A DNA stretch of 59,791 nt from Candidatus Desulfaltia sp. (GTDB lineage Bacteria; Desulfobacterota; Desulfobacteria; Desulfobacterales; ETH-SRB1), in assembly GCA_030656555.1 (NCBI GenBank), contig JAUSPN010000021.1:1-59791 (forward strand), written 5' to 3'. How positions within the stretch are numbered: position 1 is the stretch's first letter; each line of letters begins with the position of its first letter. Under the pieces are notes generated by a model, which was not told where the DNA came from, made no database searches, and was given only the letters and a program-made list of their open reading frames with translations. The position numbers and the translations under genes were made by a program. Positions 1 through 28,653 of this stretch are shown here, piece by piece.

Positions 1-817
<817 letters not shown>

Positions 818-22079: not shown

Positions 22080-22595
22080 ATGAATAACGACCGATTTGCA
22101 AAATCAGTGGGATCCAGCCCGTATTTCAAGCCGATACTTGGCGGACTCGGTGTTGGTCTGCTCGGACTTTTATTCTATTTTATTTCTCCCTTTTGGTCAT
22201 CTACCGGAAAACCCGAAGTCATTTCCGTTGGTGGATTTTTGGCTAATACTATTTCCTGGGGAGAAAAGGCGATTCTGAAGGACAACTATCTGGTATCTGG
22301 TATCCCTCCCATCCTCAGGTATCTGATATTAGGGATTGTCCTTGGTTCTTTCATTGATTCTGTGTTGTCGAAAAAACTCACATGGAAAGGGTTTAATAAA
22401 CAAAAGATAATGAAAGACGACCTTCCGTATGACATCGGTGGCGGCATCCTGATCGGCTTTGGAGTTCTGCTGGCCAATGGGTGCGTGATCAAACATTTGC
22501 TTGCAGGGGTTCCTGGGCTGGATATTGCCAGTTTCGTTGCAATAGGTGGAATTATCATTGGAATATGGTTTGGACTTAAAATAGTAGGAGGGTAG
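22080..22595 (+). CDS. YeeE/YedE family membrane protein, first half
   Basis: Inner-membrane protein of the YeeE/YedE (sulfur/selenium compound transport) family. The 171-residue product has four or five hydrophobic segments and the family pattern GGGILIGFGVLLANGC (residues 120-135), whose final Cys135 is the conserved family cysteine thought to handle thiosulfate-like substrates, followed by HLLAGVPGLDIASF. It is about half the length of a full two-lobe YeeE/YedE; the next gene supplies a second lobe. A strong GAGGAGG precedes the ATG, and 4 bp separate it from the next gene. Confidence 0.88.
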   Translation: MNNDRFAKSVGSSPYFKPILGGLGVGLLGLLFYFISPFWSSTGKPEVISVGGFLANTISWGEKAILKDNYLVSGIPPILRYLILGIVLGSFIDSVLSKKLTWKGFNKQKIMKDDLPYDIGGGILIGFGVLLANGCVIKHLLAGVPGLDIASFVAIGGIIIGIWFGLKIVGG

Positions 22596-22599
22596 GCTC

Positions 22600-23493
22600 A
22601 TGGCAGGAAACCTGTGTGTTCTGTTGATCGGAATGGCCTTAGCTGTTGTAGTAAGACGGTCCAATTACTCAATTCCGGGGGCAATCAGCGACATTTTCAT
22701 GATGGGCCGCTACCACCAGTTAGCCGGAGTGCTGGCAAGTATTTGTGCTTTTAGCCTCGTGAATATCTGGGGATATGAACCATGTCCCACCTGAGCTGAT
22801 GTCGGCTGGGGCGGTGCCCCGGGATTGCATAGCCTGGTGGGTGGAGTGCTTCAGGGGATTGGCTATGTGCTGATTGCCGGCTGACCTCTTGCTACGTTAG
22901 TCCGCCTGGGAGGCGGCGTCAAAAGATACATGGTAGCTGTCGGCGGCTTTTTGATAGGAATTATCCTGTTTGCTCAAGTGGCAAACCCTGTTCATAAAAT
23001 ATTTGATCCATTACAGGTTAAAAACCTTGTTTCCATAAAGCAGTTTTTTTCTGCAAAGATTCCTGAAGGTGTTTCCGCAAAGGTTCCTGATCTGATAATA
23101 ACAACTATAGAAGGCGAACAATTAATGCTGAAGGAACTGGCTGGCCAGAATCAGTTGGTAGTGGTCAATTTCTGGGCTTCCTGGTGCAGTCCTTGCGTAG
23201 AGGAAATGCCGCATTTTGAAAAGATTCACAGGGATTACCAAAACAAGAATGTAACCTTTCTTGGAATTGCGACAAAAGATTTGTTGCCTGCTGTCGAAAA
23301 ATTTATTGCTCAAAGAAATATAACCTACAAAATAGCCATGGATGATCAGGATAAGATAGCCACTGCCTTTGGTGGTGTGAAAGTCTTGCCAACAACGATT
23401 TTTATAGACAAACAGAACAATATTGTAAAGGTTCATAAAGGCTATTTGTCTCAAAGAGAGTTGGATAAAAATCTAAAAAATCTACTACACTAA
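22600..23493 (+). CDS. putative selenoprotein: YedE second lobe fused to TlpA/ResA-like thioredoxin, two in-frame UGA (Sec) codons
   Basis: One open frame of 297 codons if UGA at 22792-22794 (residue 65) and 22882-22884 (residue 95) are read as selenocysteine. Residues 1-130 are a YeeE/YedE lobe; residue 95 sits in GGVLQGIGYVLIAG-U-P, aligning exactly with GGGILIGFGVLLANGC of the preceding gene, so Sec replaces the conserved Cys. The part after residue 111 holds a membrane helix and then a periplasmic thioredoxin-like domain with WASWCSPC (Cys196, Cys199) and the cis-Pro VLPTT. Both UGAs are followed by SECIS-like hairpins. The ATG at 22930 lacks a well-placed Shine-Dalgarno, supporting read-through. 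AGGAGG precedes the ATG at 22600. The alternative is a pseudogene plus a separate thioredoxin gene, or plain fusion broken by two nonsense mutations. Confidence 0.75.
22795..22833 (+). promoter_or_regulatory. candidate bacterial SECIS element 1
   Basis: Immediately after the first UGA: lower stem GCT(G)ATG (22795-22801) pairs with CATAGC (22828-22833), and upper stem GGGG (22808-22811) pairs with CCCC (22817-22820) around the apical loop CGGTG. The apical GGT is 19-21 nt after UGA, matching the spacing I count in E. coli fdhF. Confidence 0.7.
22902..22916 (+). promoter_or_regulatory. candidate bacterial SECIS element 2
   Basis: CCGCCT pairs with AGGCGG around a GGG loop, starting 17 nt after the second UGA (22882-22884). 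The loop G residues lie 24-26 nt downstream, within the range accepted for bacterial SECIS elements. A distal stem GCTAC (22891-22895)/GTAGC (22933-22937) can extend it. Confidence 0.55.
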
Positions 23494-23528: not shown

Positions 23529-24050
23529 GTGGCCACAACAAGACCGATAACCAGATTTACTTTGTTTGGGGGAGTTGTAGTATTATTACTATGCTTGTCT
23601 GTATTTCCATCATCAGGACAGGCTCCCAAAGACACGAATTTGGTGCATGTTGAAGCTTATGCATCTCATGAAAGCATTAATGCTACAGGATCCTTCCAGA
23701 TAACCGTTGTTGCAAATATAAAACAGGGTTTCCACATCAACAGCCATAAACCGTTGAATGAGTTTCTGATACCGACGGTGTTGAGGCTCAATGAAACAAG
23801 AGGAATTGCTTTCGGGTCGATATATTACCCAAGGCCCAAGCAGGTATTGTTTTCCTTTTCGCCGAAACACTTGTCTGTGTACGATGGTAAAATCTCTATT
23901 TTTGCCGAGTGCAAGGTTTCCGAAAATATTTCTCCGAAAAACATCAAAGTGTCAGGCGTATTTACTTATCAGGCCTGTAATGATCAAATGTGCTTCATGC
24001 CTGAGTCTATATGTTTTGAGATCCCTTTGAAAATTGTTAAGGCAGACTAA
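23529..24050 (+). CDS. DsbD-alpha-like periplasmic thiol-disulfide protein
   Basis: A 173-residue exported protein resembling the N-terminal periplasmic domain of DsbD alone, without the membrane or C-terminal thioredoxin domains. It has a signal peptide (about residues 1-30, hydrophobic FGGVVVLLLCLSVFPSS) and the immunoglobulin-like domain ending VSGVFTYQACNDQMCFMPES, where the two cysteines of ACNDQMC are the DsbD-alpha redox pair. Start is GTG at 23529 with AAGGGA upstream; a small hairpin ATTGAGC/GCTCAAT lies between it and the preceding gene. It likely exchanges electrons with the TlpA-like domain encoded just upstream. Confidence 0.85.
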   Translation: MATTRPITRFTLFGGVVVLLLCLSVFPSSGQAPKDTNLVHVEAYASHESINATGSFQITVVANIKQGFHINSHKPLNEFLIPTVLRLNETRGIAFGSIYYPRPKQVLFSFSPKHLSVYDGKISIFAECKVSENISPKNIKVSGVFTYQACNDQMCFMPESICFEIPLKIVKAD

Positions 24051-26581: not shown

Positions 26582-27259
26582 ATGAGTATTAATATTGTTG
26601 GCAGAATCGATGATTTGATCAGTGTGAAGCACATACTTGTAAGTGTTTCAGACAAACAGGGGCTTGATGATTTTATTCCTGAGCTGCTTAAAATAAATTC
26701 TGAAATAAAAATATTTTCCACAGGCGGCACATATAACAAAATAAAGGAGATACTTGGCGCAGATGCCGCACCCTGCCTGAAACAGGTATCAGATTACACG
26801 GGCCAGCCGGAAACCCAGGGCGGCCTTGTAAAAACTCTTGATTTTAAGATATATCTTGGCCTCCTTACTGAAACATATAATGAGTCACATCAAAGTGACC
26901 TGGCAAGGACAGAATCTGTGTCTATTGATATGGTTGTCGTCAACCTCTACCCTTTTAAAGAAACCATATCAAAACCAGGCGTTACTGTCGAACAGGCCAG
27001 AGGCAATATAGATATCGGCGGGCCATGCATGATAAGGGCTTCTGCAAAAAATTTTATAAGGGTTGCGTCGGTTGTCGACCCTGTTGACTATGAAATGATT
27101 ATATCAAAGCTAAAAACAAATACTGGATCAACATCCCTTAAACTTCGCTTTGACCTGGCGCAAAAAGCTTTTGAACATACAGCAATATACGACCGCGCAA
27201 TTGCGGACTTTCTGAGCTCTCGAAAATTTGAAGATGTAAGTGGATGTTATGATAAGTGA
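26582..27259 (+). CDS. purH: IMP cyclohydrolase (N-terminal half of PurH as a separate gene)
   Basis: Catalyses ring closure of FAICAR to IMP, the last step of purine synthesis. The 225-residue protein covers only the MGS-like domain: ILVSVSDKQGLDDFI near the start, FSTGGTYNKI, TGQPETQGGLVKTLDFKIYLGLL, VVNLYPFKETI and NIDIGGPCMIRASAKNF are all typical. In most bacteria this is fused to the transformylase domain, here encoded by the next gene after a 143-bp gap occupied by a B-type repeat. Confidence 0.93.
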   Translation: MSINIVGRIDDLISVKHILVSVSDKQGLDDFIPELLKINSEIKIFSTGGTYNKIKEILGADAAPCLKQVSDYTGQPETQGGLVKTLDFKIYLGLLTETYNESHQSDLARTESVSIDMVVVNLYPFKETISKPGVTVEQARGNIDIGGPCMIRASAKNFIRVASVVDPVDYEMIISKLKTNTGSTSLKLRFDLAQKAFEHTAIYDRAIADFLSSRKFEDVSGCYDK

Positions 27260-27402: not shown

Positions 27403-28653
27403 ATGACAAAAGATCTAAAAAAGATGTATACAACGATCATGGATGATCATTTTACTCCAAAAATGGAGATCAGTTTTATAGACCACGATAAAAGGCAGAC
27501 CCTTTTTTATGAAAAGGTTGCCTGGACTATAGACAATGTCAAAAAAGGTCTGAGATACGGTGAAAATCCGGGCCAGGAAGCTGCATTATACAGACTGGTA
27601 AACGGAAATCTGATTCTGGGAGAAATCGAAACCATACAGCCAGGAAGGTATCTGGCTTCAGATATTGAACTGTTGCAGTCCGGCAAGCATCCCGGCAAAA
27701 TCAACCTGACCGATACCGACAATGCTTTAAATATTTTGAGATATTTTACGGATAAGCCAACGGTTGTCATTGTCAAGCACAACAATCCCTGCGGCGTTGC
27801 CATATCCGATTCGCTGGAAAACGCCTATGAAAAGGCATATATAGCAGACAGGATTGCGGCCTTTGGCGGATGTATTGCGGTTAACATCCCTGTTGACAGG
27901 GCTACGGCTGAATCAATCAGCAAACAATATGCCGAAGTTGTCGTTGCTCCTGATTTTGAAGAAGGGGTTATGGATATCTTCGAAAAGAAAAAGAATCTCA
28001 GGGTAATCAGAATCGACAATATCAACAGACTTCAAGCTTTTGTCGGCAAAAGATGTGTAGAATTTAAAAGCCTGATAGACGGCGGAATTATTACGCAATG
28101 GTCTTTTGTCCCGTCTGCCCGTTCCAGAAAAGATCTTGCCCTTGCAGAATGTGAATACAAGGGGAAAACATATAAAATAAATCGGGAGCCTACAGACAGT
28201 GAATATAACGACATGCTCTTTGGCTGGCTTGTTGAGTCTGGAATTACGTCAAATTCCGTTATTTATGTAAAAGACAATGTTACCGTTGGAATAGGAACAG
28301 GTGAACAAGACAGAGTAGGTGTAGCGGAAATCGCAAGAGACAAGGCATACCGGAAGCTTTGTGATCGTTATTGCTTTGAAATGCACGGCATTGCTTATAA
28401 TAATCTAAAAGACCCTGATAAAAAAGAGGAAATAGCTAACAGAGTGCGTGATGAAAAAGGCGGACTGGTCGGCGCCGCCATGGTCAGTGATGCTTTTTTC
28501 CCGTTCAGGGATGGTGTGGATGTTGGAATCCATGAAGGGATAACCTCGGTTATCCAGTCTGGAGGATCTGTCAATGATTATCAATCTATCGAGGCATGCA
28601 ACGAAGCAGACGTTACAATGGTATATACGGGGCAAAGGAGCTTTAAGCACTAA
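27403..28653 (+). CDS. purH: AICAR formyltransferase (C-terminal half of PurH as a separate gene)
   Basis: Transfers a formyl group from 10-formyl-THF to AICAR, giving FAICAR. The 416-residue protein has LRYGENPGQEAALY, the catalytic KHNNPCGVAI, AFGGCIAVN, and the C-terminal SDAFFPFRDGVDVG and GGSVND. ATG is preceded by AAGGA. Forms a functional pair with the IMP cyclohydrolase gene upstream. Confidence 0.94.
   Translation: MTKDLKKMYTTIMDDHFTPKMEISFIDHDKRQTLFYEKVAWTIDNVKKGLRYGENPGQEAALYRLVNGNLILGEIETIQPGRYLASDIELLQSGKHPGKINLTDTDNALNILRYFTDKPTVVIVKHNNPCGVAISDSLENAYEKAYIADRIAAFGGCIAVNIPVDRATAESISKQYAEVVVAPDFEEGVMDIFEKKKNLRVIRIDNINRLQAFVGKRCVEFKSLIDGGIITQWSFVPSARSRKDLALAECEYKGKTYKINREPTDSEYNDMLFGWLVESGITSNSVIYVKDNVTVGIGTGEQDRVGVAEIARDKAYRKLCDRYCFEMHGIAYNNLKDPDKKEEIANRVRDEKGGLVGAAMVSDAFFPFRDGVDVGIHEGITSVIQSGGSVNDYQSIEACNEADVTMVYTGQRSFKH

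Follow-up and report, generated by a model that had tools for sequence, protein, structure and literature searches.

Two in-frame TGA codons in a gene of Candidatus Desulfaltia sp. raise the question of whether half of a YeeE/YedE membrane channel, joined to a thioredoxin, is made as a protein with two selenocysteines, and what such a protein would do. The window, i.e., the whole stretch of DNA that was analyzed (59,791 nucleotides), held this gene at 22600..23493 on the + strand. It was annotated as a selenoprotein gene with two Sec codons, encoding a PmpB-type N-terminal YeeE half (approximately residues 1-135) and a TlpA/ResA-type thioredoxin domain (approximately residues 158-297), on the evidence of the frame, Pfam, orthologues, dN/dS, and a structure match. 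Frame reading bore out the single frame described in the sequence-only reading: it opens with the ATG at 22600, spans 297 residues, and closes with a TAA whose last base is 23493, with the TGAs at codon 65 (22792..22794, + strand; putative Sec65) and codon 95 (22882..22884, + strand; putative Sec95) as the sole interruptions. A Shine-Dalgarno-like AGGAGGG (22586..22592, + strand), inside the end of the upstream gene, was well placed before the ATG, with a duplex energy of -10.7 kcal/mol. A mechanical scan (one to three TGAs, flanked on each side by 50 or more residues) found seven TGA-containing frames in the window, so that an open TGA frame by itself is weak evidence. The fused gene was set apart from the other frames because both of its TGAs were kept in eight of eight genomes. 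Homology was followed for 22600-23493 among the seven frames, and a chance open frame was ruled out by the eight orthologues.

The fused gene occurred in eight distinct genomes from three genera and two families, with both TGAs at identical codons in every one. Carriers numbered three of 17 genomes in the window's own family, eight of 389 in the order-wide search, and five of 22 in a second family, these five being the same as in the order search. The class and phylum genome sets were drawn from larger groups. The class search returned the identical eight carriers among 389 genomes; among the 395 genomes of the phylum search there was no Sec form beyond the window's own genome, and there were four distant relatives without TGA. 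A scan of GTDB genome contigs, in which carriers beyond the order may be missed, gave, among the matches listed, mostly thioredoxins and one full-length relative, L002 (Deltaproteobacteria bacterium Meg22_02_Bin_40), which was 70% identical and had TGAs at codons 65 and 95; L002 and carrier G671, presumed to be one genome, were counted once. A plasmid search with residues 1-130 gave no match. In all eight genomes the gene immediately 5' of the fused one was of the PmpA type. Sulf_transp scored over its cut-off in all eight carriers (35.7-43.9 bits in the seven other than the window's own), as did Redoxin/AhpC-TSA in the seven complete copies; the G630 copy was cut by a contig end at residue 125.

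Median dN/dS (Nei-Gojobori, all pairs) was 0.085 for residues 2-64, 0.059 for residues 66-94, 0.161 for residues 96-150, and 0.230 for residues 151-297. Median dS was 0.7-1.2 across segments (28 pairs in the first two segments and 21 pairs in the others, from which the G630 copy was absent). Purifying selection thus acts on the fused protein ahead of the first TGA, between the two, and past the second, a pattern that does not fit a pseudogene or the end of translation at codon 65.

The membrane half of the fused protein matched Pfam Sulf_transp (PF04143) at model positions 1-110 (42.2 bits, cut-off 27). The upstream gene (22080..22595, + strand; 171 amino acids), annotated from Sulf_transp and phmmer as a PmpA-type C-terminal YeeE/YedE half, matched model positions 177-310 (67.4 bits, cut-off 27), and phmmer aligned the Cys of its LLANGCVIKH stretch with C293 of StYeeE (6leo). 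The Pfam positions of the two adjacent genes indicate that both halves of one YeeE/YedE channel are present. In the available text of PMC11582611, PmpB corresponds to the C91-bearing N half and PmpA to the C293-bearing C half, and the two are proposed to form a heterodimer. Each of the eight loci likewise had adjacent halves with one position apiece (C293 type and C91 type), to which the TlpA domain and a CPTU motif were added. Homology showed the membrane part to be a putative PmpB-type N-terminal half beside a separate PmpA-type half. The two-Sec YedE half with a TlpA-type thioredoxin that had been put forward from the letters alone is supported, and its YedE half can now be specified as PmpB type. 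The 25 NCBIfam models listed for the fused protein all scored below their cut-offs; these included seleno_YedE TIGR04112 (35.3 bits, cut-off 200), TsuA NF041049 (19.4 bits, cut-off 645), and YedE-FdhT NF033796 (28.7 bits, cut-off 350).

A profile (A7) built from the eight Sec forms and 10 other family members, the 10 being a convenience set and not a full sample, matched StYeeE 6leo (E 2e-16). In this match, residues 95, 24, and Arg102 correspond to C91, C22, and R98 of StYeeE, respectively. A profile from the first four Sec forms found no YeeE structure, a mixed alignment (A5) was discarded because its distant membrane rows were poorly aligned, and L096, L099, and L093 were left out of the structure alignment. 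All 10 of the distant family members in the alignment had Cys at residue 95 (a Sec/Cys exchange), confirming that the second TGA falls at the conserved family cysteine. The expectation of Cys in homologues thus held at residue 95 and failed at residue 65, which was Tyr, Phe, or gap in the same 10 members and Cys in none (no Sec/Cys exchange), with TGA in eight of eight orthologues. The putative Sec65 belongs to an added C-P-T-U (CxxU) motif (codons 62-65; 22783..22794, + strand), identical in the eight orthologues, and has no family cysteine counterpart.

Residue 24 was Ser in eight of eight Sec forms and Cys in seven of the 10 distant members; three Cys PmpB proteins from the window's own family also had no Cys there. 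C293, C91, and C22 have been proposed as a thiosulfate relay in StYeeE, with C22 and R98 facing the cytoplasm (PMC11073785, in the part available). This TsuA-type trio was incomplete in all eight Sec forms: C91 was replaced by Sec95, C293 lay in the partner, and C22 was replaced by Ser24. The distant relatives in genomes G037 and G192 were also split pairs, with Cys at residue 95 (GRGCPLTLLVRLGEG) and the CPTU stretch absent. The split Cys YeeE pair of the GC-rich G037 (L152:4162-5719) adjoined a DJ-1/PfpI-family gene, and G192 (L153) was alike by eye.

Ser24 and Arg102 flank a helix-loop-helix at residues 38-91, and because their counterparts C22 and R98 are cytoplasmic in StYeeE, helix 38-58 would run outward and the loop at 58-75 with Cys62-Pro-Thr-Sec65, between predicted membrane helices 2 and 3, would be periplasmic. 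The TlpA domain, which follows the last helix, would be periplasmic as well. Helices predicted at residues 2-21, 25-35, 38-58, 76-91, 96-103, and 108-135 agreed with this topology. Two AlphaFold predictions gave the membrane half low confidence (pLDDT block means 32-57 in one, mean 54.6 in the other), and Foldseek with the low-confidence model of this half gave no match. As the membrane half was poorly modeled, we infer the placement of CPTU from the StYeeE counterparts.

The C-terminal domain (residues 158-297; 23071..23490, + strand) is a TlpA/ResA-type thioredoxin by its WCxxC motif (WASWCSPC active site), its domain scores (86.6 bits for Redoxin and 83.8 bits for AhpC-TSA, each above the cut-off), and its fold. 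AlphaFold pLDDT block means were 93-98 from residue 161 on, and the best PDB match of the TlpA half was 4nmu, named ResA (E 2e-15). TlpA/ResA periplasmic thioredoxins are usually separate proteins; the domain here is like them in its WCxPC, but it is fused to a channel half.

A hairpin with a G-rich loop followed each TGA in all eight carriers, in agreement with the two G-loop hairpins noticed earlier in the window. SECIS-like hairpin 1 (GGGGC-GGU-GCCCC; 22808..22820, + strand) and hairpin 2 (CCGCCU-GGG-AGGCGG; 22902..22916, + strand) were each annotated from pairing across sequences and a consensus fold. With numbering from the T of TGA, hairpin 1 had its loop at nucleotides 22-24 (G22, G23, U24) and hairpin 2 at nucleotides 27-29. 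In the same count the E. coli fdhF SECIS also had G22, G23, and U24 (fdhF records), and G23 and U24 of that element are presumably the SelB contacts. Stem cells were paired 95% of the time over eight sequences for hairpin 1 (20-73% when slid) and 95% of the time over seven distinct sequences for hairpin 2 (43-83% when slid). The loop-adjacent pair was open in G566 and G630 for hairpin 1 and in G656 for hairpin 2, and the outermost pair of hairpin 2 was open in G566. The TGA in the SelD gene of the window's own genome was followed by a hairpin like these two, with loop GGA. By a single author-made rule that both fused-gene hairpins satisfy, 39 of the 2213 TGA triplets on both strands of the window (1.8%) had such a hairpin.

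Carrier alignments showed no compensatory base changes in either hairpin, and the fold energy of the hairpin regions was no better than that of shuffles. Synonymous change over hairpin 2 (codon window 101-108) was the 8th lowest of 289 windows across eight sequences; windows 96-103 and 100-107 ranked 105th and 43rd of 289, and synonymous sites over hairpin 1 were unremarkable (window 66-73, rank 123 of 289). A four-sequence synonymous test with hand-chosen windows gave a Fisher p of 0.03. Suppression of synonymous sites was set aside as proof of SECIS elements, the result being mixed over the 289 window placements. The hairpins are consistent with SECIS elements, short of proof.

The machinery by which the double-Sec reading was to be checked was all found in the window's own genome: SelA, SelB over cut-off (contig C95), tRNA-Sec at 75.9 bits (contig C75), and SelD (contig C31), the last with one in-frame TGA of its own. 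SelA was present in eight of eight carriers, in G656 as two separate pieces. SelB, tRNA-Sec, and SelD were searched in the three own-family carriers; SelB and tRNA-Sec were also found in G012 and G001, and no SelD over cut-off was found in G012, a draft genome. The prediction that both UGAs are decoded as selenocysteine by SelB and tRNA-Sec is strongly supported by sequence, and the double-Sec reading is very probably correct.

A second, divergent tRNA-Sec with anticodon TCA was found on contig C31 (L129:4036-4127), scoring 52.5 bits vs 75.9 bits for the main one (cut-off 47). A second SelB lay directly downstream of it (L129:4159-6081), with formate-dehydrogenase-like genes beside the pair and YedE and SelD nearby. 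G010 and G015 also had this divergent tRNA with its SelB, as did G004 and G008, in which the SelB match was partial. Multiple bacterial tRNA-Sec genes have been reported (PMC5330540, in the part available).

Other readings of the two UGAs were weighed at this point. As ordinary stops, they would leave a broken PmpB gene and a separate membrane-anchored TlpA starting at ATG 22930, the sole ATG between the second TGA and the thioredoxin domain. From this ATG runs a frame of 187 amino acids, with an upstream GAGG and a duplex energy of -7.2 kcal/mol, which beats the 5% quantile of sampled positions (-6.3 kcal/mol). The GAGG, however, lies about 16 nucleotides 5' of the ATG, beyond normal spacing, so the claim that the thioredoxin part has no properly placed ribosome binding site stood in the main. 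Ordinary stops are also hard to reconcile with the retention of both TGAs in eight of eight genomes despite a median dS of 0.7-1.2, or with a dN/dS of 0.059 between them, and this reading is very improbable. A non-Sec tRNA reading UGA as Cys or Trp, possibly by way of the divergent UCA tRNA/SelB pair on contig C31, appears hardly credible: the own genome does hold that second tRNA and second SelB, but neither a second SelB nor a second tRNA was listed over cut-off for carriers G012 and G001, and the divergent tRNA itself scores as a tRNA-Sec, above the cut-off.

A DsbD N-terminal-domain protein of 173 amino acids (23529..24050, + strand; DsbD_N 31.2 bits, cut-off 25), possibly in the same operon, followed the double-Sec gene in the window, and its counterpart lay directly downstream in G012. 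In G666 the downstream place was taken by a DsbD-type protein of 599 amino acids (L149:4787-6586) with a DsbD N domain (24.6 bits, cut-off 25), a DsbD membrane domain, and a thioredoxin. Altogether, DsbD-type neighbors were found in three of the six loci with readable downstream sequence and were complete in one. Other genes were downstream in G001, G671, and G656, and the G566 and G630 sequences ended too early. DsbD_TM scored over cut-off somewhere in seven of eight carriers, all except G630; the score in the own genome was 55.5 bits. The end of a SelD-like gene (AIRS domains; called SelD by eye from its likeness to the own SelD) lay 2.1 kb upstream of the PmpA-type gene in G671, with a rhodanese-domain gene and an opposite-strand MOT1-type molybdate transporter between the two (L002:1-2187, L147:1-780).

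Cysteine-containing relatives of the system were also present. In the own genome, a selenium cluster (L129) encoded a full-length Cys YedE alongside SelD and a Se/S-carrier protein. The same genome also had a Cys PmpA/PmpB pair (L184:5042-7419) with two genes of the AhpC-TSA/Redoxin kind just upstream, one strong (109 bits) and one under the Pfam cut-off (23.7 vs 26 bits). The Cys PmpA/PmpB set of G016 (L185:3868-6759) was like that of L184, with a cytochrome c7-type gene between, and G009 had a similar gene order with PmpA cut short. No thioredoxin-like gene adjoined the Cys pair of G014 (L187). Thioredoxin-fold partners are thus a recurrent but not constant companion of PmpAB, and in the fusion the two would be joined. 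The PmpB halves of L184 and L185 also matched DUF6691.

Elsewhere in the window the functions of purH were split between two genes. The first (26582-27259; 225 amino acids) contained MGS and AICARFT/IMPCHase positions 1-60, the second (27403-28653; 416 amino acids) contained AICARFT/IMPCHase positions 65-311, and the frames were alike in G012.

It is reasonably probable that the fused protein is the double-Sec PmpB-TlpA half of a two-chain YeeE/YedE importer of sulfur or selenium that would work as follows, with a putative substrate and electron flow. At the outer mouth, the PmpA Cys and the Cys62-Pro-Thr-Sec65 pair would capture periplasmic thiosulfate, persulfide, polysulfide, or a seleno-analogue. 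Proteins of the DsbD/CcdA type would keep the attached TlpA domain reduced, the TlpA domain would reduce the Cys62-Sec65 bond so that the chalcogen is cleaved or released, and Sec95, at the place of pore cysteine C91, would hand the chalcogen to the cytoplasmic side. Such a protein would import reductively, by means of a thioredoxin of its own, and Sec may allow faster, reversible exchange. A more specific form of this proposal is put forward only tentatively: the channel may carry out Sec redox chemistry in its permeation path, with Sec95 and Cys62-Sec65, fed by the thioredoxin, cleaving a disulfide-, persulfide-, or selenosulfide-type substrate and translocating the chalcogen (reductive group translocation). 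Selenium or sulfur transport by a Sec-containing protein, as first suggested from the sequence, may apply; the SelD-like neighbor in G671 points to selenium as the substrate and the PmpAB literature to sulfur.

The same double-Sec protein might instead be a selenium-specific importer supplying SelD, with, e.g., the seleno-analogue of a persulfide or of thiosulfate as its substrate. The available part of PMC9312934 gives YedE as a possible selenium-related transporter, a YedE-like protein of Methanococcus maripaludis is given as involved in selenium transport in that of PMC11582611, and the SelD-like gene lies 2.1 kb upstream of the PmpA-type gene in G671. A SelD neighbor was found in one of eight loci, however, the own selenium cluster already holds a full-length Cys YedE, and relatives of PmpAB have been associated with the uptake of zero-valent sulfur (PMC11582611, same part), so that selenium specificity is unlikely. 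A transmembrane redox conduit in the manner of DsbD/CcdA, in which Sec95, Sec65/Cys62, and the TlpA CxxC would pass electrons or sulfane sulfur to periplasmic targets, would account for the oxidoreductase layout of a CxxU and a thioredoxin on one chain. The window and G012 adjoin a gene for the DsbD N domain only, and the fusion could therefore replace a missing DsbD core. Against this, a complete DsbD adjoins the locus in G666, a DsbD_TM-type domain is encoded elsewhere in the own genome, and the solved family member has been proposed to relay thiosulfate (PMC11073785, in the part available), making a conduit of this kind quite improbable.

Several known systems resemble the double-Sec importer half in part. 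It is like PmpA/PmpB of PMC11582611, as far as the available text describes them, in its adjacent genes, the C293-type Cys of the PmpA half, and the C91-type position of the PmpB half; it differs in that Sec occupies the C91 position, a CPTU with another Sec has been added, and the C-terminus carries a TlpA-type domain. TsuA/YeeE of Spirochaeta thermophila (6leo, 8k1r) is of the same family, with Sec95 corresponding to C91, Arg102 to R98, and the partner Cys to C293, but the system here has two chains, Ser24 at the C22 position, a pore Sec, and an attached thioredoxin, and no TusA/YeeD-like frame was noticed beside the fused gene among the neighboring frames read by eye. A Sec-containing YeeE/YedE protein, WP_012471001.1, has one Sec in a GUxSG motif according to the available part of PMC13188914, and a single-Sec YeeE/YedE protein also appears in that of the review PMC9312934. 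Compared through its table description, WP_012471001.1 shares the Pfam family PF04143 and Sec with the fused protein, which differs in having two Sec and GUPLA/GUPLS in place of GUxSG; a TlpA fusion is not mentioned for WP_012471001.1 in the available part of that source. The rhodanese/DsbD fusion-like TsoB (NF045694) also has two Sec (PMC13188914, same part) and is alike in combining redox and membrane parts, but it belongs to different families, and the fused protein scored 16.3 bits against its cut-off of 805. A literature search restricted to texts other than subscription papers and supplements turned up neither a double-Sec nor a TlpA-fused YeeE/YedE protein. The earlier statement that the fusion is undescribed therefore held for these two features and did not extend to Sec in the family, which had already been reviewed (PMC13188914, PMC9312934).

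A standard gene call would miss the fused gene, yielding a 64-residue fragment and a lone thioredoxin. The pore cysteine C91 is reported to be indispensable in TsuA (PMC11582611, in the part available). The double-Sec protein would have Sec at this position, in a family with solved structures, together with a CxxU Sec and a thioredoxin on one chain. It would thus be a test case for whether YeeE-type transport is a passive hydrogen-bond relay, the mechanism proposed for TsuA, or includes genuine redox chemistry of sulfur.
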